DNA from: a virus
Reading direction: 5' to 3' (one strand)
IMG/VR virus record: IMGVR_UViG_3300032278_000123
Span: 1-22,825 of that record
DNA: 22,825 bases
Positions 9,972-22,825 of the stretch are shown piece after piece (position 1 is the first letter of the stretch; every line of letters starts with the position of its first letter). Below the pieces are notes generated by a model, which was not told where the DNA came from, searched no databases, and worked only from the letters and a program-made list of their open reading frames with translations. The translations under genes and the position numbers were made by a program.

Positions 9972-9973
9972 AT

Positions 9974-10392: not shown

Positions 10393-10404
10393 GTTTCCTC
10401 CTAA

Positions 10405-10873: not shown

Positions 10874-10874
10874 C

Positions 10875-10925: not shown

Positions 10926-10937
10926 AGGCTGAAAAGT

Positions 10938-11026: not shown

Positions 11027-11382
11027 AAAGTGGACTAACGCTACGCTACGTATGGGACCTTGATGGATGTAAGTCTCTTCTTGCGATTACTTCGACACCC
11101 CAGGTACGAGCTATTCTAACAGCTCTTATCGTTAAGGGTGTGTCTGAGTACTCTCGCGAGGAAATGATTGCTTTCTGGCATGAGCTCTGCGCTGGATTCA
11201 CTCATAAGGGACAACACATCCAGCTTCACTCTGGCATGGCTAGTTCTTGGAAGGGCGTCTTTGAGTACTACAGCAACCTTCCTGTGGACGGCTTCCGTGC
11301 AAGAGGTCTACTTAGCACACCTAATCCTAGTGTTAAGACTGAAGTCAAGGAACCATCCAAGTCCTCTTCTAAAGTTAACTAG
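11023..11382 (+). CDS. 119-aa hypothetical early protein
   Basis: The product starts MKSGLTLRYVWDLDGCKSLL, is predicted soluble, and ends in a Lys/Ser-rich tail (KTEVKEPSKSSSKVN) that looks disordered. The middle (SREEMIAFWHELCAGFTHKG) is helical with a Trp and a Cys but no known active-site motif. I do not recognise a family. The start overlaps the stop of a 10-codon leader and has AGGA 7 nt upstream. Codon choice favours TAC, AAG, GAC and TTC, unlike the A/T-ending codons in the genes to the right, which suggests strong expression or a different origin. It is probably an early host-takeover protein, inferred from its position behind the control RNA. Confidence 0.65.
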   Translation: MKSGLTLRYVWDLDGCKSLLAITSTPQVRAILTALIVKGVSEYSREEMIAFWHELCAGFTHKGQHIQLHSGMASSWKGVFEYYSNLPVDGFRARGLLSTPNPSVKTEVKEPSKSSSKVN

Positions 11383-11463
11383 AAGGGTACCTGGAGGATA
11401 AGGATACTTGATCTGTGTAGATTGAGAGATCTATAGGCTCAGATAAATGTCATCCTGAATTAG
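11383..11463 (+). other. Folded 3' untranslated segment
   Basis: After the 119-aa gene the transcript can fold CTTGATCT (11407-11414) with AGATTGAG (11419-11426) around GTGT, using two G-U pairs, enclosed by AGGAT (11401-11405) with ATCCT (11452-11456). It leads directly into the terminator stem. Confidence 0.4.
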
Positions 11464-11548
11464 TCCTCCCTCGAAAGGGTCTGCCAAACGGGTTCTGGTC
11501 ATCTACGACCAAACTTGTACCTAATCGAGGGAGGATTTTTTTATTTTT
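11464..11548 (+). terminator. Strong rho-independent terminator of the plus-strand early unit
   Basis: TCCTCCCTCGA (11464-11474) pairs perfectly with TCGAGGGAGGA (11525-11535), 11 bp, followed by seven T, an A and five T. The 50-nt loop contains its own hairpin TGGTC/GACCA with a 6-nt loop. A branched loop of this size is unusual for a simple terminator and may indicate a stable small RNA ending here. Confidence 0.75.
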
Positions 11549-11699
11549 CCGGCCCCGGGAGTGCAGAGGCGGCGGCTGAAGAGGCCCAGGTTTTTTTATC
11601 TGGTGCGGCGGCAGCGGACGATGCGGCTTCAGCTACTTCAAAAAGGGGTGCGGTATCGGTAAACGGGGCGGCGAGGCGGGTGCTGCGGCTTCTGAATAC
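11549..11699. other. GC-rich low-complexity patch between convergent terminators
   Basis: This stretch is rich in GCGGC, GGCGG and GCGGCT words and is much more GC-rich than its surroundings. The plus-strand frame that crosses it begins inside the terminator, has no ribosome site, and encodes an Ala-rich low-complexity chain, so I do not call it a gene. I see no minus-strand gene either. Confidence 0.5.
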
Positions 11700-11737
11700 A
11701 AAAAAAGGCCGCGGACCCCCGGATAGGAGCGCGCGGC
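11700..11737 (-). terminator. Rho-independent terminator facing the plus-strand unit
   Basis: On the minus strand GCCGCG (11737-11732) pairs with CGCGGC (11713-11708) across an 18-nt loop, and C then seven T follow (11707-11700). It would end transcripts coming from the minus-strand small genes to the right. An inverted repeat GTATCA/TGATAC at 11766-11787 lies between it and the last gene. Confidence 0.55.
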
Positions 11738-11799
11738 TGATAGAAGATGGATACTTCTTGGTTCTGTATCAACTGATCCGCTGATACTTTAAACTTCTG

Positions 11800-12132
11800 T
11801 TAGCTCTTCTTCGCCTGTTCTTCGACCTCAGTTACATAAGACTCTTCAGCCCAACGGCCTCCTGGCAACCAAGTATTAGCAACTGCAAGTACATAATCTC
11901 TCTCCAGCTGTCCTACATCATCTTGGCAAATTGTAGCAGTATGGCCGCCACGATATTCTCCTGAAACGACATCTGCAGCTAGACTTAAATGTTGTTCTAC
12001 TTCATCAGAAAACTCATCAGCTAGTGTCTTCTCCGTAAACGCCTTCACAGTCCTCTGCAATGTAGATTTAACAGCTGTACCACCATTTACATCTTCTAAT
12101 TTATAAATGTTGACGTAATACTTCTTTTCCAT
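11800..12132 (-). CDS. 110-aa hypothetical early protein
   Basis: The start is placed at the ATG 12132-12130, which has AGAAAGGTG 6 nt upstream; a GTG nine bases earlier is part of that site. The product begins MEKKYYVNIYKLEDVNGGTA and continues with an acidic, helical centre and a C-terminal Glu/Lys-rich end. Two short motifs, SGEYRGGHTATIC and NTWLPGGRW, are not diagnostic of a family I know. No membrane segment. It has its own copy of the early promoter motif directly upstream. Function unknown; likely one of several small early proteins made soon after infection. Confidence 0.7.
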   Translation of the reverse strand: MEKKYYVNIYKLEDVNGGTAVKSTLQRTVKAFTEKTLADEFSDEVEQHLSLAADVVSGEYRGGHTATICQDDVGQLERDYVLAVANTWLPGGRWAEESYVTEVEEQAKKS

Positions 12133-12140
12133 CTTTATCA

Positions 12141-12214
12141 CCTTTCTAATTAATATTAATTTTAATTATTATAATAATAAGTCTTCTAATAATTAAATAT
12201 AACTACTATTTTTT
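12141..12214 (-). promoter_or_regulatory. Early promoter repeat, copy A
   Basis: On the minus strand the core reads GAAGACTTATTATTATAA (12185-12168). The whole spacer, from the stop codon of the upstream gene to the AGAAAGG ribosome site, is 74 nt and matches copy B (12459-12532) at 65 positions by hand alignment. It precedes the 110-aa gene. Confidence 0.6.
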
Positions 12215-12448
12215 AATCTGCCACTCTGTGCCGCTTATATAATTATTATAAGCATCTCCAAGTCTATCTTCAAGTTTCTGCGACAACTCGTCATATATAA
12301 CAAACTCCAAATTTTTAACGTAGTTGCTATGTTGTTTATTAACTTCAATAGCCAAACTAAACAAAGCTTCTAATGCCATCGCGACTTCTTTATGTTTAGT
12401 TGGTATTGCTGCCAATTTATTTACAGCAGTTTGCACAGCTTCAACCAT
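12206..12448 (-). CDS. 80-aa hypothetical early protein
   Basis: A small helical protein (starts MVEAVQTAVNKLAAIPTKHK) with a run of alternating hydrophobic and charged residues (EVAMALEALFSLAIEVNKQH, then NYVKNLEFVIYDELSQKLED) that could form a coiled coil or helical bundle. No known motif and no membrane span. The ATG has AGAAAGGTG 8 nt upstream. The final Lys-Lys-stop (AAAAAATAG) forms the first bases of the downstream promoter repeat, so coding and regulatory sequence are fused here. It is the third of four small minus-strand genes. Function unknown. Confidence 0.7.
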   Translation of the reverse strand: MVEAVQTAVNKLAAIPTKHKEVAMALEALFSLAIEVNKQHSNYVKNLEFVIYDELSQKLEDRLGDAYNNYISGTEWQIKK

Positions 12449-12458
12449 TTTAAAAACA

Positions 12459-12532
12459 CCTTTCTAATTAATATTAACTTCTATTATTATAATTATAAAT
12501 CTTCTAATAATTAAATAAAACTGCTATTTTAC
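12459..12532 (-). promoter_or_regulatory. Early promoter repeat, copy B
   Basis: The minus-strand core is GAAGATTTATAATTATAA (12504-12487). It is nearly the same 74-nt spacer as copy A and again starts at the upstream stop codon (AAAATAG) and ends in AGAAAGG. It precedes the 80-aa gene. Confidence 0.6.
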
Positions 12533-12760
12533 TTCTATTTTTTCTAACTTCCCTTTTAACTCTTCATCTAGTTTTAAATATAATGCAGTCATAGTTTCAT
12601 ACATCTTATTTAACTCGGCAGGGATACGGTGGACATCTTCAAACGTATACTCCAGACCGCTATCTTCATGCTCTTGTTTACTTTGTATTCTTTTGAAGGC
12701 GATATCTTCACACACAAGTTTCAGTGCATCAGATATAAGCTTCATTTCCTTGTTGTTCAT
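12524..12760 (-). CDS. 78-aa hypothetical early protein
   Basis: The product starts MNNKEMKLISDALKLVCEDI and is a charged, mostly helical small protein with a segment EHEDSGLEYTFEDVHRIPAE (30-49) and a Lys/Glu-rich C-terminus (KLDEELKGKLEKIEVK). The ATG follows AAAAGGAG with 6 nt spacing. It lies 12 nt behind the 58-aa gene, so both are probably read from promoter copy C, whereas the next gene has its own promoter. The stop codon TAG is the first part of promoter repeat B. No homologous family recognised. Confidence 0.7.
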   Translation of the reverse strand: MNNKEMKLISDALKLVCEDIAFKRIQSKQEHEDSGLEYTFEDVHRIPAELNKMYETMTALYLKLDEELKGKLEKIEVK

Positions 12761-12772
12761 TTAATTCTCCTT

Positions 12773-12949
12773 TTAATCTTCTATAACCTTGATTATTATC
12801 TTCCCTTGTTTACCGCCATCTTTAATACTTTTTTCTTCATCAATCTCAATGTCAGTAATCTTCACATCATTGAAGGCGTTCTCAATATCAAGATTGTCAA
12901 TAACAACCCCGTCTTCCAAGTGCATCTTAAAAAACACATCATAAATCAT
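12773..12949 (-). CDS. 58-aa hypothetical early protein
   Basis: This short gene fills a gap that would otherwise look empty. It starts at ATG 12949-12947 with TTAGGTG about 8 nt upstream and ends TAA at 12775-12773. The peptide (MIYDVFFKMHLEDGVVIDNL at the start) is acidic and strand-rich, ending with DGGKQGKIIIKVIED, a regular alternating pattern that suggests a folded beta protein. It is the first gene behind promoter copy C and lies 12 nt upstream of the 78-aa gene. Function unknown. Confidence 0.65.
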   Translation of the reverse strand: MIYDVFFKMHLEDGVVIDNLDIENAFNDVKITDIEIDEEKSIKDGGKQGKIIIKVIED

Positions 12950-12956
12950 AAGTTCA

Positions 12957-13024
12957 CCTAATTAATACTATTACTATTATATATATTATAAATCTTCCAA
13001 TTTTTTATTAAAACTTCTATTTTA
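12957..13024 (-). promoter_or_regulatory. Early promoter repeat, copy C
   Basis: The minus-strand core is GAAGATTTATAATATATA (12997-12980), with the upstream AAAATAGAAGTTTTA that copies A and B also carry. It drives the 58-aa and 78-aa genes and lies back to back with the plus-strand copy at 13052. Confidence 0.55.
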
Positions 13025-13028
13025 TAAA

Positions 13029-13075
13029 ATTAGATGTATTATTTAATTTTAGGATGCTTTATTATATATAAAGAT
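13029..13075 (+). promoter_or_regulatory. Early promoter repeat, plus-strand copy
   Basis: The core reads GATGCTTTATTATATATA (13053-13070), 29 nt before the ATG of the zinc-finger-like gene. The preceding TAGATGTATTATTTAATTTTAG aligns with the upstream half of copies A and B. It forms a divergent pair with copy C. Confidence 0.5.
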
Positions 13076-13098
13076 AATAAAGTAAGAAAGGAGAAAAC

Positions 13099-13341
13099 AT
13101 GGCTGAGATGAAAAAGCGAATAGAATGCGACATTTGCGGTGGTCTATGTGAAATAAAGACTGATGCGAATGGAAAAGAATACTGGCGGGGTGGTGAAAGC
13201 GCTCACCCGTATGAGTTCTCTGACGAAGTCTTAAAACAGCGGGATGGTGACCCTAGATGTTGCATGCAATGTAATGTTGACATTGTAATGCCTCTACGAT
13301 TAGGTATGGTAACAATGGAGGAACTGAAAAATGAAGCATAA
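13099..13341 (+). CDS. Zinc-finger-like small protein
   Basis: The 80-residue protein has two CxxC-type clusters, CDICGGLC (10-17) and CCMQCN (54-59), which together could bind one zinc ion as a Cys4 ribbon. Between them is a charged linker with WRGGESAHPYEFSDE. Such small zinc proteins are common in phage early regions and may act as DNA- or protein-binding modulators; no specific function can be read here. The ATG follows GAAAGGAG with 7 nt spacing. The stop overlaps the start of the next gene by 11 nt, which suggests coupling. Confidence 0.75.
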   Translation: MAEMKKRIECDICGGLCEIKTDANGKEYWRGGESAHPYEFSDEVLKQRDGDPRCCMQCNVDIVMPLRLGMVTMEELKNEA

Positions 13342-13636
13342 GTTCGAAAAATTACAGGCAGAGGAGTCACTGAAACCTACTAACTCACTCTGGACGATAG
13401 ACAAAAAAGAAGACGAGCCCGACTTAAAAAGGGCGCAAAGATTTGTCTGTGGTTATATTGCGTGTGTTCAGCTGGAAGATGGTGACTGTCTCATAGTTAA
13501 CGAAGAAGGCAAACTTCATCAATTACCGATTAATGTAGCTGCGACTAAACTATGGAGAAAAAGTAATCCACTGTCTGAAGATTATATGGTTGGAAATGTT
13601 ATTTATATTAAGAAGGAAGCTAGAAAAAGTTATTAG
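13331..13636 (+). CDS. DUF3846-like small protein
   Basis: The 101-residue protein contains CGYIACVQLEDGDCLIVNEE (40-59), then GKLHQLPINVAATKLWR (60-76) and a final strand YMVGNVIYI (85-93). This order (strand, acidic turn, LIVNEEGK, Leu-Pro-hN-AT) is the pattern I associate with DUF3846, a small phage and plasmid family of unknown role. The region before residue 35 is charged and looks flexible. The gene overlaps the zinc-finger-like gene and ends just before the long gene-free structured segment. No catalytic residues stand out. Confidence 0.65.
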   Translation: MKHKFEKLQAEESLKPTNSLWTIDKKEDEPDLKRAQRFVCGYIACVQLEDGDCLIVNEEGKLHQLPINVAATKLWRKSNPLSEDYMVGNVIYIKKEARKSY

Positions 13637-13639
13637 AGA

Positions 13640-13912
13640 TTATGGGGGATGGAACCAGTACGCTGTAATGGCGTTGCATATATGTGGGTGAAATCCCTGG
13701 CAACATAGCCGAGTAAAATCGGCGACCCCCTGTAAAGGGAAGATTTTTGTAATATTAACTGTAGTTAATGATTTAGTATACAAAAAATAACAATCTTCCC
13801 GGTGATGAGGCGAGTACTTTACCCATGTTTCGTACAACTTTCATCGGAGTAAACATATGGGCTCATGATGAAAGTAGGGTTTCTCCGTACTCGCCGCTGA
13901 ACTTAAATTAAA
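13640..13912 (+). ncRNA. Candidate structured RNA, three paired domains
   Basis: About 275 nt with no credible gene fold into three domains in plus-strand RNA. Domain 1: GGGGG (13644-13648) pairs with CCCCC (13726-13730) around ACGC/GCGT (13660/13671), GTTGC/GCAAC (13673/13700) and GCCGA/TCGGC (13708/13719). Domain 2: GGGAAGATT (13737-13745) with AATCTTCCC (13792-13800), inner TTTGTA/TACAAA and TTAAC/GTTAA. Domain 3: GGCGAGTAC (13809-13817) with GTACTCGCC (13887-13895), enclosing ACTTTCATC (13837-13845) with GATGAAAGT (13867-13875). CCCAT and GTTT (13822-13830) can also pair with AAAC and ATGGG (13851-13861), a pseudoknot or alternative fold. I recognise no known RNA class. It precedes the 68-aa gene. 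Confidence 0.6.
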
Positions 13913-13925
13913 GAAAGGAGATAAG

Positions 13926-14132
13926 ATGAAACTTAATATGAGAGAAATAAAGTGGATTAGGCAGTCTTTATATGCGCATGCCACAAAATATAAGACCAGC
14001 CAAAATCCTGACTTCCTAAAATATAATGATCAACTTTTGAAACTTCACAAGAAGTTTCGTAAATGGGAGTTAAAAATAGAAGACAAATTAGAAAAAAGAC
14101 ATGATGAAACAACCAATATAGTGAGGTACTAA
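13926..14132 (+). CDS. 68-aa basic hypothetical protein
   Basis: The product is very basic and helical (starts MKLNMREIKWIRQSLYAHAT, later KLHKKFRKWELKIEDKLEKR), with no membrane span and no known motif. The ATG has AAAGGAG 6 nt upstream, one of the better ribosome sites in the window. It follows the structured segment at 13640-13912, which may control its translation or be processed away from it. It is separated by 1 nt from the next gene. A nucleic-acid-binding role would fit the charge, but this is only a guess. Confidence 0.65.
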   Translation: MKLNMREIKWIRQSLYAHATKYKTSQNPDFLKYNDQLLKLHKKFRKWELKIEDKLEKRHDETTNIVRY

Positions 14133-14133
14133 A

Positions 14134-14397
14134 ATGGAACTAAGGTATGGAACGAAAACCAGAACCAAACTAATGGAGGTTTGGAGGAACACATCTGCGA
14201 AACGAGACACAGCAGTTGATTTAAATATCGGTTACCTTGACGATGCTTTGTTGGGTTGGGCTTATCGTAATGCCCCCATCGAAGTGTTGAGAGAAAAACT
14301 AAGAGAATATAAAAAGAATTACGATTATATAGATAGGAGATACGACAAACGGACTAAGATTAGTACAGATGATTATACCGAAGAACTATACGACTAG
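14134..14397 (+). CDS. 87-aa hypothetical protein
   Basis: The 87-residue protein begins MELRYGTKTRTKLMEVWRNT. It is rich in Arg, Lys and Tyr, with a helical centre (IEVLREKLREYKKNYDYIDR) and an acidic end. No family is recognised. It is the last gene of the plus-strand group that started at 13099, and a terminator follows within 45-100 nt. The ATG has GAGG 8-10 nt upstream, within the end of the preceding gene. Confidence 0.65.
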   Translation: MELRYGTKTRTKLMEVWRNTSAKRDTAVDLNIGYLDDALLGWAYRNAPIEVLREKLREYKKNYDYIDRRYDKRTKISTDDYTEELYD

Positions 14398-14438
14398 TTC
14401 TTCCCCTAAATTGAGGGCTACAAAATAAAGGACACTTC

Positions 14439-14497
14439 AAAGTTACACTTCTAAAGTGTTAGTATATAGGGGTTTTTGAACTTTTTTTTATTTTTTT
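14439..14497 (+). terminator. Rho-independent terminator of the 13.1-14.4 kb group
   Basis: AAAGTT (14439-14444) pairs with AACTTT (14479-14484), enclosing ACACTT (14445-14450) with AAGTGT (14454-14459). The sequence then runs T7-A-T8. The long T tract is the best support; the outer stem overlaps its first bases. Confidence 0.6.
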
Positions 14498-14598
14498 TGT
14501 TGTAAAGTTACCAATAGACCAATAACTATCTCTCCTGCGATGGCCTAAACCATTGATTCTACATAATAAAGTTCATTATTGGTATATAGTATTGGGGC

Positions 14599-14724
14599 TC
14601 ATTTTGAGCCAATAATCGCCAATACAACCGCAAATGCCGCGGATATTCCTAATATAAATATCAGGACGAGGCCCGCGGCTAGCAGTAAAAGTGGCGAAAA
14701 TAACCAACTTAAAAACGTCAACAT
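14599..14724 (-). CDS. 41-aa membrane protein
   Basis: The frame starts at ATG 14724-14722, overlapping the stop of the preceding gene as TAATG, and ends at TGA 14601-14599. After a short start (MLTFLSWLFSP) almost all residues are hydrophobic (LLLLAAGLVLIFILGISAAF, then AVVLAIIG), enough for one long or two short membrane spans, ending in Ser-Lys. No family is recognised. It is the last gene of the minus-strand operon that begins at 15641. Pairing with another tiny membrane protein is reminiscent of holin and antiholin pairs, but this is inference from size and hydropathy alone. Confidence 0.6.
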   Translation of the reverse strand: MLTFLSWLFSPLLLLAAGLVLIFILGISAAFAVVLAIIGSK

Positions 14725-14849
14725 TAGTCCCAAACCTGTAAGATTACGTAGACTAATATTAAGAACCAGATACCGGCAACTGTCCAGCTAACTATTTTCC
14801 AGACGTTGTTCATTTTTATCTCCTGTTCCCAGTCAGTATGACTTTTCAT
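14724..14849 (-). CDS. 41-aa membrane protein with two possible starts
   Basis: The first ATG (14849-14847) overlaps the previous stop as TAATG and has GGAG 7-8 nt upstream. A second in-frame ATG at codon 13 (14813-14811) has its own CAGGAG site. The long form adds a charged MKSHTDWEQEIK to the short form, whose body has one membrane span (IVSWTVAGIWFLILVYVILQ) and a short WD end. Dual starts that differ in N-terminal charge occur in lambda-type holins, where the two forms antagonise each other. Here the arrangement is seen, but the function is inferred. The stop overlaps the next gene as TAATG. Confidence 0.6.
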   Translation of the reverse strand: MKSHTDWEQEIKMNNVWKIVSWTVAGIWFLILVYVILQVWD

Positions 14850-15061
14850 TATGCATCTCCTTGTTTTTTACGGATGCGTTCAATATCAACATATCCCGCA
14901 GCTTGGTAAGGAACAAGTTCTCCATCCTTGCGGACAAATTCCCCGTCCCTACCAATACGCGCTGCCAAAACACGTCGGTTCATCGTCACGTAAAGTGTAG
15001 GGTAGAGTACATGCTCTACCCCATTAACCCTTATCTTTCGATAAGTATCGTCAGGTGTCAT
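14849..15061 (-). CDS. 70-aa basic hypothetical protein
   Basis: I place the start at the ATG 15061-15059, 4 nt after the preceding stop. A longer frame with 11 more residues (rich in Lys and Arg) begins inside the upstream gene without a ribosome site. The product (MTPDDTYRKIRVNGVEHVLY at the start) is basic and strand-rich, with a segment RRVLAARIGRDGEFVRKDGE and no known motif. Its stop is shared with the start of the following membrane gene. Function unknown. The start choice is uncertain. Confidence 0.6.
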   Translation of the reverse strand: MTPDDTYRKIRVNGVEHVLYPTLYVTMNRRVLAARIGRDGEFVRKDGELVPYQAAGYVDIERIRKKQGDA

Positions 15062-15065
15062 TTTC

Positions 15066-15641
15066 TCACGACGCCTTAGCTTCCGATTTTTCATCGATTG
15101 TATTCCTTAACTTTTTTGTAAGTTTATTAACTTCATCAGTAATCCCATCGCACTCTTCTAAGATTTTCTGATGGTAAGGGTGCTCTTCAAACTCACCCTG
15201 ATGCTCAGCAAGGGTCATTCCGTGAGTCACTGCAATGTGCGATGAGTTTGGTATAAATTGCACCACACAAACATTCCCAACAAATTGAGGCATTCGACGT
15301 TGAATTTCGATAGTCTCACCTCTTTTTTCCTGGGACCACTTTATAAAGTTTAAGCGTGCTTCAATTGCCCACTTATTCAATACTCTGTCTTCCTTAATGA
15401 ATGTACTTTCAATAGGCGAGTAGTACATTGAAAAGTTTTCGGTAGGATGGACATCAGAATGCCGACCTATATTTGTAAGAAGGCCATCTGAACCATATTC
15501 TTTTAAAACTTCTCTGAAGTTATCACCTAAGATAAGGTGCTGCAGATGTTTCACAATATCGCCACGATTTTCAACTACCATATCTTCCCCTAAGCCAGGG
15601 TCTTGATTGACAGCATCAAAAGATTTAATATTCCAAGACAT
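15066..15641 (-). CDS. 191-aa hypothetical early protein
   Basis: The 191-residue soluble protein starts MSWNIKSFDAVNQDPGLGED. Distinct segments are NFREVLKEYGSDGLLTNIGR (41-60), a Trp-containing stretch around residue 90 and a strand-rich RRMPQFVGNVCVVQFIPNSS. The C-terminal third is Glu/Lys-rich and likely coiled. No catalytic motif or known family is recognised. It is the first gene of the minus-strand operon behind promoter copy at 15661-15711, with GAAAGGAG close to the ATG. As the largest early protein in this group it may be a host-takeover factor, but nothing in the sequence proves it. Confidence 0.7.
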   Translation of the reverse strand: MSWNIKSFDAVNQDPGLGEDMVVENRGDIVKHLQHLILGDNFREVLKEYGSDGLLTNIGRHSDVHPTENFSMYYSPIESTFIKEDRVLNKWAIEARLNFIKWSQEKRGETIEIQRRMPQFVGNVCVVQFIPNSSHIAVTHGMTLAEHQGEFEEHPYHQKILEECDGITDEVNKLTKKLRNTIDEKSEAKAS

Positions 15642-15660
15642 TTTTTCTCCTTTCTATATA

Positions 15661-15711
15661 TTATCATATAATATAATTATATTTCATCCGATTTTATAAG
15701 TACACTTCTTT
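15661..15711 (-). promoter_or_regulatory. Early promoter repeat, minus-strand copy before the 191-aa gene
   Basis: The minus-strand core is GATGAAATATAATTATA (15689-15673) preceded by a GAAGTGTACTTATAAAATCG upstream half. It lies back to back with the plus-strand copy at 15728-15772 in the 269-nt gap between the two divergent operons. Confidence 0.5.
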
Positions 15712-15727
15712 TTTTAAAAAAGAGGTA

Positions 15728-15772
15728 AAATAAATGTTTACTTTTATTATTGGAAGAATTATTATATATATT
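15728..15772 (+). promoter_or_regulatory. Early promoter repeat, plus-strand copy before the replication operon
   Basis: The core is GAAGAATTATTATATATA (15753-15770), preceded by AAAATAAATGTTTACTTTTA, which resembles the upstream half of the other copies. It would produce a leader of about 140 nt before the 93-aa gene; that leader holds a GGGGAGCTCC-rich segment (15859-15868) facing a run of C (15887-15892). Confidence 0.5.
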
Positions 15773-15910
15773 AAGTACTTAGAGTTAACACGACGGAGTT
15801 ATTCGGATAAGTTGTTTCTCTTTGTGCTTGTTTTGAAATGATGTTCATGTTAAATTAAGGGGAGCTCCGGAGATTCCCGTTTCCAGCCCCCCTCTTTTTA
15901 GGAGAAAGAT

Positions 15911-16192
15911 ATGAGAAGAAAGACAAAAAATAAGTGGGTTTATCAAATGCCGTCGATGCTCACTATAGAAGATGTAAATAAGAGGCGGCCTCCCTTACCC
16001 AATCAAGCACGCAATATTGCTAAGATTCTCTTAGAGGCGGGCGCATTAAAACGGCCAGCTCTTTTAGAAGCCATGCAGACACTAGTCAAGACGAAGCAAA
16101 AGGGTGGGGCAAATAGAATTTTAACATATTACCAGAAACTCTTAGTTGATGCTGGTTTTCTGATTTTGACAAAGAGGCCTAACAATGGCTAA
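15911..16192 (+). CDS. 93-aa basic protein, possibly DNA-binding
   Basis: The product starts MRRKTKNKWVYQMPSMLTIE and is strongly basic. Residues about 30-88 show a helix-helix-helix-strand pattern (NQARNIAKILLEAGALKRPA, then ILTYYQKLLVDAGFLILTK) that resembles a winged helix-turn-helix fold, but no family motif confirms it. The ATG follows TAGGAGAAAG with a good spacing. It opens the large plus-strand replication operon and overlaps the methyltransferase gene by 8 nt. A regulator of the operon or a replication accessory are both possible. Confidence 0.6.
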   Translation: MRRKTKNKWVYQMPSMLTIEDVNKRRPPLPNQARNIAKILLEAGALKRPALLEAMQTLVKTKQKGGANRILTYYQKLLVDAGFLILTKRPNNG

Positions 16193-17090
16193 TGCAAGAG
16201 GCAAAGAGATCGACAATACTCATCTGAGTATTGTACAAGCCGAGGCTCGAGGTTTTCTCCATAGGGATTATATTGCTCATTGCTTGCGCTGGACGCATGT
16301 GGTGAAATATCTTAGTCTCAAGAAAAGATACAAAGAAGCCAATATTCTAGATGTGGGATGTGGAAAGGACATGCCATTGGCTCGTACCTTAATGACCTCG
16401 AGACTCGCACCTATGTCATATTTAGGTGTGGATTTCAACGCGATGGAAATTCCTTCGATGTTTGAAAAGACTACCTTTCAACCTAAACTTATTCAGAATG
16501 AAGATTTTTCACTCCTTGACCTTAAATTATGGTTTGAGATGAAAATGGGAGAAGGGTGGAAACCTAACTATGTTACTTGTTTTGAAGTCCTAGAGCATGT
16601 TGAGCCGTGGACCGCGATTAAAATACTTGGCAACATTGGCGAGCATGTCAGTGATGATAATACATGCTGGTTCTCGACCCCTTGCTGGGATGAAAAGGTA
16701 GGGGCCGCCGCAAACCATGTTAATGAGATGACCTATGAGGCGTTCGGTTCTCTCTTAGAACATATGGGATTCAAGATTCTAGATCATTGGGGGACATTTG
16801 CCTCAATTAAAGATTATCGCATCCACATGGATCTAAAGACTGAAGAGATGTTTGACAAATTAAAAGAATATTACGATAGCAATTATATCGCAACGATATT
16901 TGCCCCGCTTTACCCGCAACACTCCCGAAATTGTCTTTGGGAGACTCAATTTTGTGGACGATTAAAGCTCGAAGAAAGGAACTTTGGACCAATAGATAAG
17001 ATTGAGGGCAGACTTGGTTCATCTACACACTGGAGAGAGTTAGTAAAATGTACAAACGCGGAAGAAAAGGAAGTTTCTACAGAGACGTAG
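16185..17090 (+). CDS. SAM-dependent methyltransferase (class I)
   Basis: The 301-residue protein carries a Rossmann methyltransferase core: motif I ILDVGCGKD (54-62), the acidic residue after strand 2 in GVDFN (81-85), the FEVLEHVE motif (133-140) and the strand 5 segment CWFSTP (161-166). This is the small-molecule or protein methyltransferase pattern; the (D/N/S)PPY motif of DNA amino-methyltransferases and the PC motif of C5 enzymes are absent. The C-terminal 100 residues are family-specific and contain several aromatic residues. The substrate is unknown. Its place upstream of the nucleotide enzymes leaves open a role in base modification. It overlaps the next gene by 43 nt. Confidence 0.75.
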   Translation: MANARGKEIDNTHLSIVQAEARGFLHRDYIAHCLRWTHVVKYLSLKKRYKEANILDVGCGKDMPLARTLMTSRLAPMSYLGVDFNAMEIPSMFEKTTFQPKLIQNEDFSLLDLKLWFEMKMGEGWKPNYVTCFEVLEHVEPWTAIKILGNIGEHVSDDNTCWFSTPCWDEKVGAAANHVNEMTYEAFGSLLEHMGFKILDHWGTFASIKDYRIHMDLKTEEMFDKLKEYYDSNYIATIFAPLYPQHSRNCLWETQFCGRLKLEERNFGPIDKIEGRLGSSTHWRELVKCTNAEEKEVSTET

Positions 17091-17431
17091 AAGACTTTCA
17101 TCGAAAGTTTCTGCTTGGATATGCTGGACGCCCAAGAATGCTTGAAGAGGAAATCATGCTGGCTAGGTGCAGTCACCAACAAGAGGAGCTTGCTGAGATA
17201 CTCAAAGGAATTTATGAAAATGATAAAGTGCAGGTTCTTGATGGGTTAGTTGATACTGTATATGTGGCGTTAGGCACATCCTATCTTATGGGCTTTGATT
17301 TTGAAGAGGCCTGGGATAGAGTCCATGAAACAAATATGAAGAAAGTTAGAATGAAAACAAAACGATCAAAGATAGATGTTGTAAAGCCAGTTGGCTGGAA
17401 AGCACCTGTCTTAAAAGACTTATGCGAATAA
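17048..17431 (+). CDS. MazG/PRA-PH-like nucleotide pyrophosphohydrolase
   Basis: The 127-residue protein is an all-alpha NTP pyrophosphohydrolase: a first helix DVEDFHRKF (13-21), the metal-binding QEELAE (45-50), a second acidic pair in LDGLVD (64-69) and the typical closing KPVGWKAPVL (113-122), which I recall from phage phosphoribosyl-ATP pyrophosphohydrolase-like proteins. Such enzymes cleave (d)NTPs to monophosphates. T4 Gp56, the dCTPase/dUTPase of the same broad fold, feeds dCMP hydroxymethylase and deaminase, and all three counterparts are neighbours here. Substrate cannot be read from sequence. It overlaps the methyltransferase by 43 nt and the kinase by 10 nt. Confidence 0.8.
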   Translation: MYKRGRKGSFYRDVEDFHRKFLLGYAGRPRMLEEEIMLARCSHQQEELAEILKGIYENDKVQVLDGLVDTVYVALGTSYLMGFDFEEAWDRVHETNMKKVRMKTKRSKIDVVKPVGWKAPVLKDLCE

Positions 17432-18435
17432 TAGTTTTAGATGGCCCCGATGCAGTAGGTAAGACTACTCTCGCGAAGGCAATTATAGAGAAGTATCCAA
17501 AAACTAAGTATTTCCACCTTGGTTATAGATACAAGGACAGGATGTTTGATTACCATACAGCGGCAATTAGGGTTGCTGGAAAAGCAGCGGTAACTCATAA
17601 CGTCATTCTTGATCGTTGGTGGCCGAGTGAAGGCTGCTATGCAAGTATATATCGAGGTGGTAGTGCTTGGCCGCTTCAAGGAAGGTTCTTAGAACGAGCC
17701 GGTTTAAAATACGGTGCAGTTTACGTGATGTGCCTGCCTGATGAAAATACTGCTAAAAGATTTAAAAAGATGAAAGAAGAGCGCACAGAGATGTATGAAG
17801 ATATTAAAGAAGTTAGCGAGCTATACACAAAGTTTTATAATGGAGACAAAGACCATAAAGATAAAGGAAATTATATTGATCAAATTATTCTTAATGGAGG
17901 CGCTAAAGAGATTCCTTATTTTTTACCTTACACCATTGAAAAGTGGGGTGCGCACAAAGATATGTTTATTGATATGATTATGCATGCCGCAAAAAAGATG
18001 AGAATGACACAGTGGCTAACTGCTTTAAATCCAAATGAGCATAACATCTTAGGACATAAGCAATTTGCTAAATATCTATTTGTAGGTGATAAAGTGAACC
18101 CTAAATATAAAAGATTATTTTGGCCATTTTTTGAATACGGAAATTGCAGTTTAAGCTTTACAACTATATTAAATAAATTGTGGATCAAAGAAAGAAATTG
18201 TGCTTGGACAAATATACATCATCCAATAACAGGACAACTTGATTTACGATTTCCTAAGGCTGCAAATGGTCATATCAAGATTATTGCATTAGGAAAAGAA
18301 GCAAAAGAAGCTTTAGATAAAAACGAGATTAAAACCCATGCGGTTTTAAAACACCCTCAGTACTATAGGAGATTTTTAGGTAGCCTAAAGACGGGGGACC
18401 CTTTATATAATGATTTGAAGGAGGTGATAATATGA
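17422..18435 (+). CDS. Deoxynucleoside monophosphate kinase fused to a UDG-like domain
   Basis: The 337-residue protein has two parts. Residues 1-195 are a thymidylate-kinase-like P-loop enzyme with GPDAVGKTT (8-16) and the DRWWPSE motif (64-70) that corresponds to the DRY/H base-binding motif. Residues about 205-330 resemble the uracil-DNA glycosylase superfamily: YLFVGDKVNP (218-227), WPFFEYGNCSL (234-244), AWTNIHHP (261-268), IIALGKEA (287-294) and KHPQYYRRF (310-318), in the order and spacing of motifs 1 to 3. The usual glycosylase catalytic residues are not obvious. It could phosphorylate dTMP or a modified dCMP; the second domain may recognise or remove a base. It shares ATGA with the next gene. 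Confidence 0.7.
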   Translation: MRIIVLDGPDAVGKTTLAKAIIEKYPKTKYFHLGYRYKDRMFDYHTAAIRVAGKAAVTHNVILDRWWPSEGCYASIYRGGSAWPLQGRFLERAGLKYGAVYVMCLPDENTAKRFKKMKEERTEMYEDIKEVSELYTKFYNGDKDHKDKGNYIDQIILNGGAKEIPYFLPYTIEKWGAHKDMFIDMIMHAAKKMRMTQWLTALNPNEHNILGHKQFAKYLFVGDKVNPKYKRLFWPFFEYGNCSLSFTTILNKLWIKERNCAWTNIHHPITGQLDLRFPKAANGHIKIIALGKEAKEALDKNEIKTHAVLKHPQYYRRFLGSLKTGDPLYNDLKEVII

Positions 18436-19223
18436 CAGCAAATGATGTTTGGTATCATACTGCCCTGCACTTGCTCAATACGGGAAAGGAGTTCAATCCA
18501 AAAGACTTAGACACCCGAGAGCACGTTAATTTTCAGACAGCAGTTCCAATGTCTCATCCATTTGTAACGTACAAGGAGAGAAAATTAGGTTATAAATTCA
18601 TGGCTGCAGAAGCCGCTACCATTTTGATTGGCGGAAATACTGTAGCAAGTTTAAAACCATTCTCAAAGGAAATCGCTAGTTTTTCTGATGATGGATATTT
18701 CTTCTCCGGTGCTTATGGACCGAGGGTCGTGGATCAACTTACATACATCGTAGACTGTTTGGTTGAGGATGAGTTTTCTCGACAGGCAGTAATGACTTTG
18801 TGGCGTAAGAATCCAAGACAAAGTAAGGATATTCCTTGCACTGTTGCATTACAGTTCTTAATAAGGGATGGAAGACTTCATTGCATTGCGACCATGAGAT
18901 CGAGTGATATCTGGTTGGGATGGCCATATGATGTGTTTAACTTTACCATGATCTCGCACTATCTCTCATTATTGTGGGAACATAGGAAAGGTTATTCTTT
19001 GACACTTGGTATGCTCTATATTAATGCTGGGAGTCAACATCTTTATTGGGACGATTTCGATAAGGTAAAGAAATTGCGTTCTGGCGACTATGACGAAAAA
19101 ATAGTTCTAGTAACTGAGTCACAGAACCCTTTTATAGGTTTTAATAGCCCACATAACTTGGTAGAGTGGCTTATTGAAAGAGCTGAGAATGGAGATTTGT
19201 TAGATAAATGCAGACAAGATTGA
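18432..19223 (+). CDS. Thymidylate synthase-family enzyme, possible dCMP hydroxymethylase
   Basis: The 263-residue protein aligns along the catalytic core of thymidylate synthase: the nucleophile Cys136 in DIPCTVALQF, the phosphate-binding Arg156-Ser157 and Asp159 in MRSSDIWLG, and His203 and Tyr205 in SQHLYW. In E. coli ThyA the segment GLPFNIASY holds Asn177, which reads the 3-NH/4-oxo edge of uracil; here the matching segment is GWPYDVFNF, with Asp167. Asn to Asp at this site is the hallmark of T4 dCMP hydroxymethylase (Gp42). The second Arg of the RR pair is Gln118. The enzyme should therefore prefer dCMP, making 5-hydroxymethyl-dCMP or 5-methyl-dCMP with a folate cofactor. Ordinary TS is the alternative. 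Confidence 0.75.
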   Translation: MTANDVWYHTALHLLNTGKEFNPKDLDTREHVNFQTAVPMSHPFVTYKERKLGYKFMAAEAATILIGGNTVASLKPFSKEIASFSDDGYFFSGAYGPRVVDQLTYIVDCLVEDEFSRQAVMTLWRKNPRQSKDIPCTVALQFLIRDGRLHCIATMRSSDIWLGWPYDVFNFTMISHYLSLLWEHRKGYSLTLGMLYINAGSQHLYWDDFDKVKKLRSGDYDEKIVLVTESQNPFIGFNSPHNLVEWLIERAENGDLLDKCRQD

Positions 19224-19420
19224 TGTCGTTCATTGAGTCAATGACTCAAGTAACAGTAGGTTTAGTGATTAGTTATACTTTCACACTGTTTGGGATGCCG
19301 TACTTCTTTGGTATTACCTTTACTTATAATGAAGCTGGATTAATCACATTAACTTACTTTTTCTTGTCTGCTATACGAATGTATATTATAAGAAGGATAT
19401 TTGATGCGACGTCCAAGTAG
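19208..19420 (+). CDS. DUF7220-like small membrane protein
   Basis: The 70-residue protein has two hydrophobic segments (about 12-32 and 44-60) and ends RMYIIRRIFDATSK. The starting pattern MQTRLMSFIESMTQVTVGL and the RRIF end are those of a small two-span phage family I know as DUF7220, found beside replication genes of many phages. The role is unknown; an anchor for replication enzymes has been one speculation that the sequence cannot test. It overlaps the thymidylate synthase-family gene by 16 nt and the deaminase by 17 nt, so it is embedded in the operon. Confidence 0.7.
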   Translation: MQTRLMSFIESMTQVTVGLVISYTFTLFGMPYFFGITFTYNEAGLITLTYFFLSAIRMYIIRRIFDATSK

Positions 19421-19898
19421 AGACTCATATTTCTTGTCAATGGCGCATCTTGTTAGTACCAGAAGTACTTGTGTAAGACGACAAGTTGGCTGCATACTTA
19501 TCGATGACAATAATTTTGTTGTTGCCACTGGTTATAATGGAGTTGGAAAAGGCCAAGTACATTGTATTACTAAACCATGTCCAGGTGCAAAATATACTAG
19601 TGGAAAGGGACTGGATAAATGTGAGGCAATTCATGCTGAACAAAACGCTTTATTACAGTGCAGAGATACTCAAAAGATTAGTAAAGCTTATTTGACGTTA
19701 AGTCCGTGCATTACATGCGTTAAATTATTATTAAACACGTCTTGTCGAGAACTTTTGTTTGATGAGGAATATATTAACTTAGATGCGAAAAGGATATGGA
19801 AAAATGCCCGTCGATTATGGACCCCGGCAAATGCCGTTGTGGACTCCGGAATCAAGGTGGACCCCTCCACCGGACTTCCCGGACTTGACAAAAGCTAA
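19404..19898 (+). CDS. Deoxycytidylate (dCMP) deaminase
   Basis: The 164-residue enzyme starts at ATG 19404, which has AAGGA 8 nt upstream; the preceding TTG codon is not needed. It contains the zinc and catalytic motifs HAEQNA (77-82) and PCITC (101-105) of the cytidine deaminase fold, and the typical STCVRRQVGCILIDD entry (21-35). It converts dCMP to dUMP, the substrate of thymidylate synthase, and is usually regulated by dCTP and dTTP. The His-Cys-Cys-rich insert CITKPCPGAKYTSG (54-67) is common in phage dCMP deaminases. The last 95 nt overlap the DNA polymerase gene in another frame. Confidence 0.9.
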   Translation: MRRPSRDSYFLSMAHLVSTRSTCVRRQVGCILIDDNNFVVATGYNGVGKGQVHCITKPCPGAKYTSGKGLDKCEAIHAEQNALLQCRDTQKISKAYLTLSPCITCVKLLLNTSCRELLFDEEYINLDAKRIWKNARRLWTPANAVVDSGIKVDPSTGLPGLDKS

Positions 19899-21702
19899 GC
19901 TGATTGCGTTTGACTGTGAAACTTGTGACCCAAACCTAATGACAATGGGACCTGGTGGCGTAAGAAATGATGGTAAGCTTATCGGAGTTTCTCTTGCTAC
20001 TGATACAGGGTTTAAGGGATATTATCCAATCGGTCATGAAGGGGGCGGAAATTTAGATAGGAAAAAAGTCCTTGCTTGGTTAAAAGAGCAATTAGAGACT
20101 GATATTTTTAAAGTTGGCGCTAATATTCTTTATGATCTAGAATGGCTGCGTTCCGTTGGTATTAATGTTAAAGGTCATTTTTATGATATTCAAGTAGCCG
20201 AGCCTTTAATAGATGAAGAAAGAAAAGAAGGATATAGCTTAGAAGTTCTTAGTCAAAGATATTTGGGACGTGGAAAAGATGAAACCTTATTAAAGGCAGC
20301 CGCAGAAGCTTATAACTTAGATCCTAAAAAAGATATGTGGCAATTACCTCCTCACTACGTAGGTGGATATGCTGAAATTGATGCTGTAAATACTTTGGAG
20401 ATATTTCAAAAACAAATTGAAATTTTAAAAGAAAATGGATTAGAAGAAATTTTTAGATTGGAGACCGCACTAATTCCATTAATATTAGATATGAGATTTA
20501 AGGGTGTAAGAATTAATATAGATAAGGCAGAACAATTAAACTCTAGGTATGAAAAGAAAGAAGGAGAGATGCTAGTCAAGCTTCGTGAGAAAGCCGGATT
20601 TCCTGTTGAACCTTGGAGCAGCGAGCAACTTGCATTAGCTTGCGAAAAAACTAGAACCTGGTTCCCAGTTACTGAAGCTGGCAATCCTTCATTTACTGCA
20701 GAATTTATGGGTAATAGCAAAGATCCGTTTTTGGAAATGGTCGCTGAGTTTCGAAAAGTTAATAAGATGAGGAGAGATTTTATAAAAAAAGTGTGCCTTG
20801 ATATGTCTGTTAAAGGACGTATCCACGCTCAATTTCATCAACTAAGAAGAGATTCTGAAGGGACTAGAAGTGGACGGTTTAGTTCTAGTAACCCTAATTT
20901 ACAGCAGATTCCGGCTCGAGACGAGTATTGGGGCCCATTGGTTAGGTCATTATTTCTTCCGGAAGAAGGACACCAGTGGGCTCGCTTAGATTATAATCAA
21001 CAAGAACCTAGGATGCTAGTTCATTATGCTGTGCTGCGTAACATTAGAGGTTCAAAAGAAGCTTGTGAAGCCTATAAACAAAAGGAAGCCGACTTCCATA
21101 CATTAGTAGCAGAAATGGCAGATATAGATAGAAAGACTGCGAAGACAATTAACTTAGGTATTATGTATGGAATGGGAACATTTAAGCTAGGACAGATGCT
21201 TAATTTAAATTATAATGCTGCAACTATTCTATTGGAGAAATATCATGGCAATGTTCCGTTTGTAAAAGGTTTAATGCATGAAGCCTCTAAAGCTGCCTTA
21301 TATAGAGGTGAGATTAAAACTCTTCTTGGAAGAAAAAGACATTTTGACTATTGGGAGCCAGCTGATTCTACTTTAAGATGGCCTAACAAGGAAATGCCTT
21401 TAAGAAAGATTGATGCAGAAAAAGTGTGGAAAGGTAGACCTTTAAGAAGAGCTTATACTCATAAGGCGCTAAATGCTCTTATTCAAGGCGCCTCAGCAGA
21501 TTTAACAAAGAAGGCTATGTTAGACTTATATACTGAATTAAATGTTGTCCCTCATTTACAGGTACATGATGAAATAGATATTTCTTATAAAGATGAAAAC
21601 GAACTAAAAAAGATTGCCCAGATCATGGAAAACTGTGTAGAATTAGAGGTGCCTTTAAAGGTAACATTAGAGAAAGGCCCATCGTGGGGAGAATGTAGGT
21701 GA
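19804..21702 (+). CDS. Family A DNA polymerase with 3'-5' exonuclease
   Basis: I choose the ATG at 19804 (AAGGA 10 nt upstream); a start 21 nt earlier or one at 19831 is possible. The 632-residue protein has an exonuclease domain with DCE (37-39), NILYD (107-111) and YAEID (189-193), and a polymerase domain with motif A LDYNQQEPR, motif B RKTAKTINLGIMYG (443-456) and motif C HDE (588-590). It is a T7-type replicative polymerase. The position equal to E. coli Phe762 is Leu, a variant frequent in marine phages. It begins inside the deaminase gene and ends overlapping the nuclease gene (GTGA). Confidence 0.93.
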   Translation: MPVDYGPRQMPLWTPESRWTPPPDFPDLTKAKLIAFDCETCDPNLMTMGPGGVRNDGKLIGVSLATDTGFKGYYPIGHEGGGNLDRKKVLAWLKEQLETDIFKVGANILYDLEWLRSVGINVKGHFYDIQVAEPLIDEERKEGYSLEVLSQRYLGRGKDETLLKAAAEAYNLDPKKDMWQLPPHYVGGYAEIDAVNTLEIFQKQIEILKENGLEEIFRLETALIPLILDMRFKGVRINIDKAEQLNSRYEKKEGEMLVKLREKAGFPVEPWSSEQLALACEKTRTWFPVTEAGNPSFTAEFMGNSKDPFLEMVAEFRKVNKMRRDFIKKVCLDMSVKGRIHAQFHQLRRDSEGTRSGRFSSSNPNLQQIPARDEYWGPLVRSLFLPEEGHQWARLDYNQQEPRMLVHYAVLRNIRGSKEACEAYKQKEADFHTLVAEMADIDRKTAKTINLGIMYGMGTFKLGQMLNLNYNAATILLEKYHGNVPFVKGLMHEASKAALYRGEIKTLLGRKRHFDYWEPADSTLRWPNKEMPLRKIDAEKVWKGRPLRRAYTHKALNALIQGASADLTKKAMLDLYTELNVVPHLQVHDEIDISYKDENELKKIAQIMENCVELEVPLKVTLEKGPSWGECR

Positions 21703-22106
21703 CAGAAAAAGATTTATGGCAGCTAATTCGTAAGAATATTCCAGGTCATTTATGCCGGATAGAAAATTTAGGAATGGCTGGAGTACCTGACATCCATGCT
21801 TGTCATCGTGGGGTTATGGTGTGGTTAGAATTAAAAATTGCCTCTGGACAGACTGTCTATTTTCAAAGTTCTCAGTTAGCTTTTATGCAAGAAGCAAAGA
21901 AAAATAGAGAGAATGTAAAGGTATTGATTAGAAAAAATGAACTACTTTATTTAATTAGAAGTAATATTTTAATAAAAGAAGTGTATAATTCAATTAATAG
22001 TGATAAGATTAAATTTAACTTGAGTGAATTTTCTAGAGCCTATATATGGGGAAAACCTTGGCGCTGGAATGAGATTACTCAAAAGATATATGAGAAAGAA
22101 GAATGA
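21699..22106 (+). CDS. VRR-NUC/PD-(D/E)XK nuclease-like protein
   Basis: The start is a GTG overlapping the polymerase stop as GTGA. The 135-residue protein has the small nuclease core: CRIENLGMAGVPDIHACHRG (19-38) with Pro-Asp at 30-31, followed by WLELK (42-46) as the Glu-x-Lys and QSSQLAFMQEA in the following helix. This is the VRR-NUC type of the PD-(D/E)XK superfamily. In T7 the comparable position after the polymerase module holds nucleases for host DNA breakdown and recombination. A junction-resolving or flap-cutting activity is plausible. The C-terminal 45 residues are Tyr/Trp-rich and unassigned. Confidence 0.75.
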   Translation: MTEKDLWQLIRKNIPGHLCRIENLGMAGVPDIHACHRGVMVWLELKIASGQTVYFQSSQLAFMQEAKKNRENVKVLIRKNELLYLIRSNILIKEVYNSINSDKIKFNLSEFSRAYIWGKPWRWNEITQKIYEKEE

Positions 22107-22417
22107 ATAATGTATATGTAGTGCAGGAGGTTAAAAATCGTAACCTTATGCCTGCTCAGAAATTTGGAGAACTAGTATTGCTACTGCCACCTGGAAATAT
22201 AGTTCTGTCACCTGCCCCAACTGTACGAAGGTTGGTTAAAGGTTTAAAGGATTATAATGACGACGATTATCTTTTAGCGATGGGAGACCCGATTGCAATA
22301 GGTCTCGCTAGTGCGATAGCAAGCGATTTCAATAATGGAAAAGTAAATTTTCTTAAATGGGATCGACAAGAAAGACTTTATTATAAAGTTAAGTGTAATA
22401 TATTTGGGAGAAAATAG
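22103..22417 (+). CDS. Conserved-type 104-aa phage protein of unknown function
   Basis: The product starts MNNVYVVQEVKNRNLMPAQK and contains FGELVLLLPPGNIVLS (21-36), DDDYLLAMGDPIAIGLASAI (53-72) and KWDRQERLYY (84-93). The combination of a GDP-hydrophobic helix and a WDRQ motif recurs in proteins encoded beside phage DNA polymerases, in my recollection, but no function is known. It could be a replication accessory protein. It shares ATGA with the nuclease gene and is followed directly by the next gene. Confidence 0.65.
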   Translation: MNNVYVVQEVKNRNLMPAQKFGELVLLLPPGNIVLSPAPTVRRLVKGLKDYNDDDYLLAMGDPIAIGLASAIASDFNNGKVNFLKWDRQERLYYKVKCNIFGRK

Positions 22418-22639
22418 ATGACATTAGCAGCTTTTGATCCAAGAAATATAACTTTATATAAAGAACCAAAATATTTATTACACTTCCAATGGGGAGGAGG
22501 AGGCAATATATATAGATATGCTTTGGTTGAGGTTATTCCGCCAAAGGAGATTAATTCTCTGACGAAACAAAAGGCAGATGAATTAAATTTAGAACAGAAA
22601 GAAATTTGGAGGACTAAATACAATGGATTTATCAGATGA
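22418..22639 (+). CDS. 73-aa hypothetical protein
   Basis: The ATG directly follows the previous stop codon, with GGGAGAAAAT as the ribosome region. The product begins MTLAAFDPRNITLYKEPKYL and has an aromatic HFQWGGGGNIYRYALVEVI segment before a charged helical end. No domain is recognised. It overlaps the next gene by 17 nt. It is a member of the replication operon of unknown function. Confidence 0.6.
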   Translation: MTLAAFDPRNITLYKEPKYLLHFQWGGGGNIYRYALVEVIPPKEINSLTKQKADELNLEQKEIWRTKYNGFIR

Positions 22640-22825
22640 TCAGTTAAAGGCGGTTTCTAAATTAGCTTTAGACATAGAAGCTCAAACATTAATAGTACAA
22701 GATTGTCAAGAATCTCTTGATAGAGCGATAACAAAATTAAGAGAATTGGAAGAGAAAATCCTTCCAGAAAAATTTGCAGAGCTTGGCTTAGCAGAAGTTA
22801 AGTTAAAAGATGGAAGTTCTGTTTC
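22623..22825 (+). CDS. Partial early/replication protein, N-terminus only
   Basis: Sixty-seven codons are visible from an ATG at 22623 with GGAGG about 10 nt upstream; the window ends before a stop. The visible part is a helical coiled coil (MDLSDDQLKAVSKLALDIEA at the start, then ITKLRELEEKILPEKFAELG) followed by LAEVKLKDGSSV. The pattern of a coiled coil, Leu-Pro, then Gly-Leu-hydrophobic-Asp-Gly resembles small phage proteins near exonuclease genes whose function is unknown; I am unsure of the match. Confidence 0.6.
   Translation, partial: MDLSDDQLKAVSKLALDIEAQTLIVQDCQESLDRAITKLRELEEKILPEKFAELGLAEVKLKDGSSV

Follow-up and report, generated by a model that had tools for sequence, protein, structure and literature searches.

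A virus fragment in IMG/VR encodes a thymidylate synthase (TS)-family enzyme with an aspartate where E. coli ThyA has Asn177, which raises the question of what reaction this enzyme performs and what its neighbouring genes do with the product. Aspartate at this position is reported to characterise enzymes with cytosine substrates, namely T4 gp42, MilA and BcmA, and asparagine those with uracil substrates (PMC5175136, PMC6400193). The fragment, hereafter the window, is the whole 22,825-base stretch that was analysed and belongs to a podovirus-like phage; the minus strand encodes the terminase, the head-tail adaptor and the major head and tail proteins, and the plus strand the nucleotide and replication functions. 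A sister contig, 99.955% identical over window positions 9413-22825, extends 6.4 kb rightward with a primase and helicases. The features considered are the following:

16185-17090, plus strand: SAM methyltransferase, proposed tailoring O-methyltransferase (Methyltransf_23, 50.6 bits; Hen1 and UbiG profile matches; model pLDDT 89)
17048-17431, plus strand: MazG/NTP pyrophosphohydrolase (PF01503, 37.7 bits; phrog_671)
17422-18435, plus strand: dNMP (thymidylate-type) kinase with an extra C-terminal domain (phrog_761, 55.6 bits; PF02223, 21.9 bits, below the cut-off of 27)
18432-19223, plus strand: TS-family enzyme of 263 amino acids, proposed dCMP hydroxymethylase (PF00303; MilA the best solved match; AlphaFold pLDDT 91)
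18828-18830, plus strand: codon of Asp133 (ThyA Leu143, T4 gp42 Asp145), the hydroxymethylation residue, located three positions ahead of the catalytic Cys (alignment; PMC6400193)
18837-18842, plus strand: codons of the catalytic Cys136 and of Thr137 (ThyA Cys146 and His147; alignment)
18930-18932, plus strand: codon GAT of Asp167 (ThyA Asn177, T4 gp42 Asp179, MilA Asp186), cytosine determinant (sequence and alignment)
19401-19898, plus strand: dCMP deaminase, start codon TTG in the mechanical ORF listing (PF00383, 65.2 bits; phrog_174)
19783-21702, plus strand: family A DNA polymerase (PF00476, 200.2 bits)

The best NCBIfam match of the polymerase is DpoZ, an aminoadenine polymerase, at 302.5 bits and below the 500-bit cut-off. 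The extra C-terminal domain of the kinase measures ~170 amino acids and matches the Pfam uracil-DNA-glycosylase (UDG) superfamily in 4/24 members, and in 2 of 38 chosen records (31 of 80 IMG/VR contigs, five named family phages and two controls); no UDG match was found by Pfam in this domain of the window kinase, nor in the separate annotated glycosylase of locus L002.

The aspartate at ThyA position 177

The first-pass annotation had set Asp167, within positions 18927-18935 (codons of Tyr166-Asp167-Val168), opposite Asn177 of E. coli ThyA, and had suggested a multiple alignment with ThyA, T4 gp42, MilA and SPO1-type enzymes as a check. MAFFT alignments of these and other enzymes bear the placement out, LYQRSCDVFLGLPFNIASY of ThyA and ATMRSSDIWLGWPYDVFNF of the window matching residue for residue with Asp167 on Asn177. 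An alternative Asn at this position is ruled out, as Asn170 could reach it only by a three-residue shift that breaks the LGxP match, and phmmer independently pairs the Asp167 stretch with MilA, placing the window Asp opposite the MilA Asp. Position 177 is Asp in 85/85 rows of the family alignment, from which a truncated T4 copy (L084) is excluded. In this count the scan peptide WPYDVFNF fixes the residue in part of the first set, and 47 of the 79 IMG/VR rows contain no scan peptide other than GYKFMAAE, which excludes residue 177. For the second and fourth sets no synthase residue was fixed by fetching, and the synthase counted is the best match of a family-built profile. Chance or misalignment as an explanation of Asp167 was rejected on the strength of the alignments and the 85 concordant rows.

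The catalytic residues are kept as the annotation had stated, Cys136, Arg156, Ser157, Asp159, His203 and Tyr205 corresponding to ThyA 146, 166, 167, 169, 207 and 209. Because they are present in the window and invariant wherever aligned in the 85 family rows, the possibility of a dead enzyme was also rejected. The match to PF00303 (57.2 bits against a cut-off of 24.3) places the protein in the TS superfamily, the residues of which (Cys, Glu58, Tyr94, Arg166, Ser167, Asp169, His207 and Tyr209 in ThyA numbering) are all identical in the aligned window sequence; the canonical ThyA trio Asn177/Leu143/His147 is replaced by Asp167, Asp133 and Thr137.

In a metagenome study, 177 and 147 are reported as the two positions that best distinguish synthases of cytosine-modified DNA from other synthases (PMC8670742). 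Since Asp177 is a published determinant of cytosine specificity, Asp167 alone is not new but textbook knowledge, that is, a known determinant, correctly read, in a new member; the new part is a gene cassette variant with a neighbouring methyltransferase. As a specificity mark residue 177 does point to cytosine, but it sets no reaction by itself, being Asp also in Xp12-like phages and in an RB69 flavin monooxygenase. The further expectation of a substrate switch upon mutation of Asp to Asn is oversimplified, given that T4 D179N is reported to be crippled by up to ~3600-fold in kcat (PMC6400193).

Chemistry of the synthase

Because Asp177 is common to enzymes of differing chemistry, further positions were compared (143/147/169/177/209, ThyA numbering). 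The alignment gives D/T/D/D/Y for the window enzyme, T4 gp42 and MilA, L/H/D/N/Y for ThyA, D/N/D/N/Y for SPO1, N/P/D/D/Y for AXL1 and PaMx74 (relatives of the 5mC phage Xp12) and E/T/N/D/F for RB69ORF048c, and this short code appears to separate several chemistries of the TS fold. The T4 residue at position 143, Asp145, is reported to activate water for hydroxymethylation, with no product obtained from D145N (PMC6400193), and Asp133 of the window agrees with the published requirement for Asp or Glu three residues before the catalytic Cys. Asp is found at 143 and 169 in 85/85 family rows (D169 being fixed by the scan peptide MRSSDxWLG in part of the third set), and Tyr209 in all 83 rows that reach it. 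The Ser or Thr two residues before the active-site Tyr (T4 Ser94) is Gly93 in the window and Gly in 85/85 family rows, so that the published hydroxymethylation signature (PMC6400193) is only partly present, and we file the enzyme as one working like a dCMP hydroxymethylase rather than as a T4-gp42-type member. The Ser94 equivalent is also missing from SPO1 (Ala) and from Churro and Sonora (both Gly). Similarly, Gln118 of the window replaces one of two phosphate-binding arginines (ThyA Arg127, T4 Arg124), as it does in SPO1.

We consider the window synthase to be, with a probability of roughly 0.83, a phage dCMP hydroxymethylase. The observations behind this reading are the residue code, the predicted fold and the conserved gene cassette; substrate, product and mechanism we infer by analogy with T4 gp42. 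Cys136 would attack C6 of dCMP while Asp167 would hold and protonate cytosine N3, the one-carbon unit would come from methylene-tetrahydrofolate, and water steered by Asp133 would quench the exocyclic methylene to give 5-hydroxymethyl-dCMP and tetrahydrofolate. With tetrahydrofolate as the product, no dihydrofolate reductase (DHFR) would be needed. T4 gp42 resembles the window enzyme in Asp at 177 and 143, in Thr147, the catalytic Cys, Glu58, Tyr94, D169, H207 and Y209, and in having no ThyA closing tail, but it is distant in sequence and differs at Ser94.

The nearest fold of the window model (pLDDT 91) is MilA (VIA Z 26.1-26.2, rmsd 2.3-2.4, 244-246 residues), with ThyA folds behind it (Z 24.2 and below), and MilA is also the nearest solved sequence (phmmer 1e-15). 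MilA is a CMP 5-hydroxymethylase (PDB 5jnh, 5jp9, 5b6d, 5b6e) with the residue code of the window, and this proximity might suggest that the window enzyme likewise prefers the ribonucleotide CMP. MilA is, however, an antibiotic pathway enzyme whose ribose preference is reported to be set by Lys133 and Ala176 (PMC5175136); the window has Arg117 and Ser157 at these positions, the deoxy form, making a CMP preference extremely improbable. A second fold neighbour is PDB 9iqc (Z 23.9, rmsd 2.0 over 211), entitled 'monooxygenase dependent on riboflavin with dCMP and FAD'. Its near-identical relative RB69ORF048c shares Asp177 and Thr147 with the window, and an enzyme of this RB69 type, a flavin-dependent dCMP monooxygenase with a TS fold, would presumably yield 5-hydroxy-dCMP. 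We regard this as very unlikely for the window, the fold of which is nearer to MilA than to 9iqc: RB69 has E143/N169/F209 against D143/D169/Y209 in the window (D159 and Y205 for the latter two), D169 is reported to be a pterin-binding residue (PMC6400193), and D143, D169 and Y209 are all invariant in the family rows described above.

Asp177 is equally found in AXL1 gp63 and PaMx74 gp52, which stand in for Xp12, whose own sequence was outside the comparison. These Xp12-like enzymes of the Pamexvirus group are dCMP methylase candidates, which would transfer a hydride from tetrahydrofolate, giving 5-methyl-dCMP and dihydrofolate; like the window enzyme they have a dCMP deaminase and pyrophosphohydrolase-type neighbours. 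Restriction data would accord with such a methylase, Xp12 DNA having been reported to resist 196 of 218 enzymes (PMC7653180), much as the DNA of Stenotrophomonas phage AXL3, a carrier of the window's cassette, resisted 35 of 37 and was cut by two only, both with A/T-only sites (PMC7504290). As AXL3 has the residue code of the window too, its resistance also counts in favour of the hydroxymethylase reading, although the result is compatible with any modification of C or G. Three differences nevertheless make a methylase improbable in the window. First, the AXL1 and PaMx74 enzymes have N143/P147 where the window has D143/T147. Second, the ThyA closing tail (IKAPVAI) is absent, the window enzyme ending in RAENGDLLDKCRQD and ThyA in GYDPHPGIKAPVAI in the alignment. 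Third, an annotated DHFR lies close to the synthase in AXL1 and PaMx74, whereas DHFR was matched in 0/36 family records, some of them fragments and the window's sister contig among them, using a search that recovered it in 2/2 Pamexvirus-group controls (both below the curated cut-off). The window's methyltransferase found no match in the searched stretches of AXL1 (23 kb) and PaMx74 (20 kb).

An ordinary thymidylate synthase or dUMP hydroxymethylase, as annotated for AXL3 gp28 and Pseudoxanthomonas phage PW916 ORF60, would be consistent with PF00303 membership and with the adjoining dCMP deaminase, which makes dUMP. We find this highly improbable given Asp instead of Asn at position 177, where the SPO1 dUMP hydroxymethylase and the enzymes of Sonora, Churro and Montesquieu, presumed to be dUMP hydroxymethylases as well, all combine N177 with N147. 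Moreover, seven of the 36 family records (some fragments) encode a separate dTMP synthase, namely ThyX in five and a second, full-length canonical ThyA (N177, L143, H147) in two (L181 and L182, from the records of L010 and L014). Together with the residue code, the MilA fold and the DHFR count, these separate synthases support the first-pass reading of a cytosine-specific enzyme like T4 gp42. The Asp residue thereby identifies phages whose enzyme is often annotated as 'thymidylate synthase' as a family that probably makes hydroxymethylcytosine.

The gene cassette

The cassette runs in the order methyltransferase, MazG, kinase, synthase, deaminase and polymerase, both in the window and in MW202510. 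Phages AXL3 (a siphovirus) and PW916 have methyltransferase, NTP pyrophosphohydrolase, kinase, Asp177 synthase and dCMP deaminase in the same order without an adjoining polymerase, the PW916 kinase gene being unannotated in its record yet found by our search. Their synthases are 46% (AXL3) and 41% (PW916) identical to that of the window over the matched part, and AXL3 gp28 (L086, 9980-10789) and PW916 ORF60 (L087, 3280-4098) both show the two aspartates of a dCMP hydroxymethylase. The publications on these phages assign the cassette genes to the dTMP or dUMP pathway, gp28 being read as a dTMP synthase by authors who note a second, ThyX-type one (PMC7504290), and ORF60 as a dUMP hydroxymethyltransferase.

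Neighbours were counted on the same strand from 4 kb upstream to 3 kb downstream in those of 84 synthase-related loci with enough sequence, giving the kinase in 80/80, dCMP deaminase in 65/71, MazG in 64/76, polymerase A in 59/66 and the methyltransferase in 58/69. Such counts describe nearest relatives, as the best 80 loci were kept from synthase scans of 83 and 447 and from a methyltransferase scan of 392; 31 of the 78 methyltransferase loci share contigs with the first set, and the 239 synthase-bearing loci form 135 clusters. The association also appears when loci are fetched by a neighbouring gene. Methyltransferase-fetched loci (best 80 of 392) contain a synthase in 62/77, invariably D143/T147/D177, some of the remaining loci being too short; with at least 3.5 kb downstream the figure is 58 of 61, three being without a synthase. 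Loci fetched by a carbamoyltransferase, leaving out L192 (on the contig of L046), contain one in 20/22, always with D143 and D177 and with T147 in 19 and S147 in 1. All 82 synthases at loci fetched by neighbour genes thus carry Asp at both 143 and 177, in independent support of the hydroxymethylase reading.

For the kinase, MazG and deaminase, and for incorporation into DNA, we infer roles consistent with a dCMP hydroxymethylase at the centre of the cassette. The adjacent kinase would convert 5-hydroxymethyl-dCMP to the diphosphate, the MazG-type pyrophosphohydrolase would probably trim unwanted dNTPs, the dCMP deaminase would feed the branch leading to dTMP, and the family A polymerase would put the modified nucleotide into phage DNA and so protect it against restriction, hydroxymethylcytosine in phage DNA being a known kind of phage armour.

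Tailoring genes and the predicted cap

In loci L046 and L080 the methyltransferase is replaced directly before MazG by a Pfam-recognised O-carbamoyltransferase (TobZ-like for L046). The carbamoyltransferase-before-MazG order recurs in L203-L210 and L214, which with L046 have the gene order of the MetaGPA cassette, reported to comprise an Asp177 synthase, PRA-PH, dCMP deaminase and O-carbamoyltransferase (eLife 2021, PMC8670742). The window likewise groups an Asp177 synthase, MazG/PRA-PH and dCMP deaminase in one cluster but has a methyltransferase where that cassette has a carbamoyltransferase. A carbamoyltransferase in the window cassette was rejected, the methyltransferase occupying its place, and PF02543 was matched in 0/38 records including the window's sister contig (L046 and L080, which have it, lie outside those 38).

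The two genes appear to alternate. Among 119 clusters that extend at least 2.9 kb beyond the synthase on its upstream side, the methyltransferase lies within 4.5 kb upstream in 70, the carbamoyltransferase in 19, both in 0 and neither in 30, totals that are no frequencies as the clusters were partly fetched by the counted genes. The corresponding figures for the 90 synthase-fetched clusters are 63, 2, 0 and 25. The methyltransferase is found in 0/19 carbamoyl-selected versus 63/90 TS-selected clusters (Fisher p 5.2e-9), a value that overstates independence because a sampled tree requires only two switches between the methyltransferase and carbamoyltransferase states. This tree comprises 23 methyltransferase rows (a cluster sample, the window and AXL3) and all 19 carbamoyl rows, and L046 and L080 form a single clade nested within the methyltransferase family. 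Of 47 methyltransferase-selected clusters that include a synthase, 10 lack the methyltransferase within the 4.5 kb upstream of it on the same strand.

Profile matches of the window methyltransferase are headed by a lysine methyltransferase (1.8e-8), followed by several Hen1 chains (1.7e-6 and weaker) and UbiG (5e-5). Its E134, E137, H138 and H178 are invariant in 35/35 rows and form the HEN1-type ligand pattern of ExxEH plus a later His; HEN1 is reported to bind Mg via E796, E799, H800 and H860 (PMC10781085), ExxEH being aligned with a Hen1 and H178 paired with H860 by motif only. Motif IV of HEN1 is reported to resemble that of small-molecule methyltransferases and to differ from the motif IV of typical nucleic-acid enzymes (PMC1397878). 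In VIA comparisons the methyltransferase model (pLDDT 89) lies nearest to CmoM (Z 18.0, 221 aligned, rmsd 4.0) and also matches HEN1 (Z 15.4, 186 aligned, rmsd 2.9). Many class I enzymes follow close behind CmoM, so the fold does not decide the role. CmoM itself transfers a methyl group to an oxygen in the C5 side chain of a tRNA uridine.

For a carbamoyltransferase encoded on the same contig as such a synthase, activity is reported on 5hmC in DNA and on 5hmdCTP, but not on 5hmdUTP or 5mdCTP (PMC8670742). With a putative O-methyltransferase in the place of this O-carbamoyltransferase, and both beside a probable hydroxymethylcytosine maker, 5-methoxymethylcytosine is the simplest prediction. 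We therefore propose, tentatively and as a possibility that we think somewhat doubtful, that the cassette makes this base, a 5-hydroxymethyl-dC with its hydroxyl methyl-capped by the O-methyltransferase and undescribed in DNA; the target of the methyltransferase may instead be RNA ends, another hydroxyl or a second base. No report of methoxymethylcytosine in DNA was found in the open PMC literature, nor, in titles and abstract openings there, any report of the methyltransferase cassette. If the proposal is correct, many uncultured cassette-bearing phages as well as the cultured AXL3 and PW916 would carry 5-methoxymethylcytosine. The swap of carbamoyl for methyl tailoring predicts a new DNA base that is testable in an already cultured phage.

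Other caps may occur in further relatives. T4 adds glucose, whereas a scan of 16 window proteins recognised no glucosyltransferase. The Gram-positive phages ATCCB (Lactobacillus) and vipetofem (Enterococcus) share the window's five-position code and have an annotated beta-glucosyltransferase at most 0.5 kb downstream of the synthase, which further supports the hydroxymethylase reading. Neither the methyltransferase nor the carbamoyltransferase was matched in Pelagibacter phage HTVC200P, and neither is in the annotation of a 6.7 kb stretch of HTVC119P; relatives with neither gene would carry plain hydroxymethylcytosine or another cap. L066, a locus without the methyltransferase, has a deoxy-pyrimidine 5'-nucleotidase match (NT5C) at 8572-9183, upstream of the synthase. 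Finally, L081 (8125-9030) and L082 (8072-8998) have an ORF matching PALP-type PLP-dependent enzymes that immediately precedes the kinase, at or close to the tailoring position, the match exceeding the curated cut-off only in L082 and a similar-looking ORF of L083 having no Pfam match; the ORF of L081 and L082 possibly represents a third kind of tailoring.
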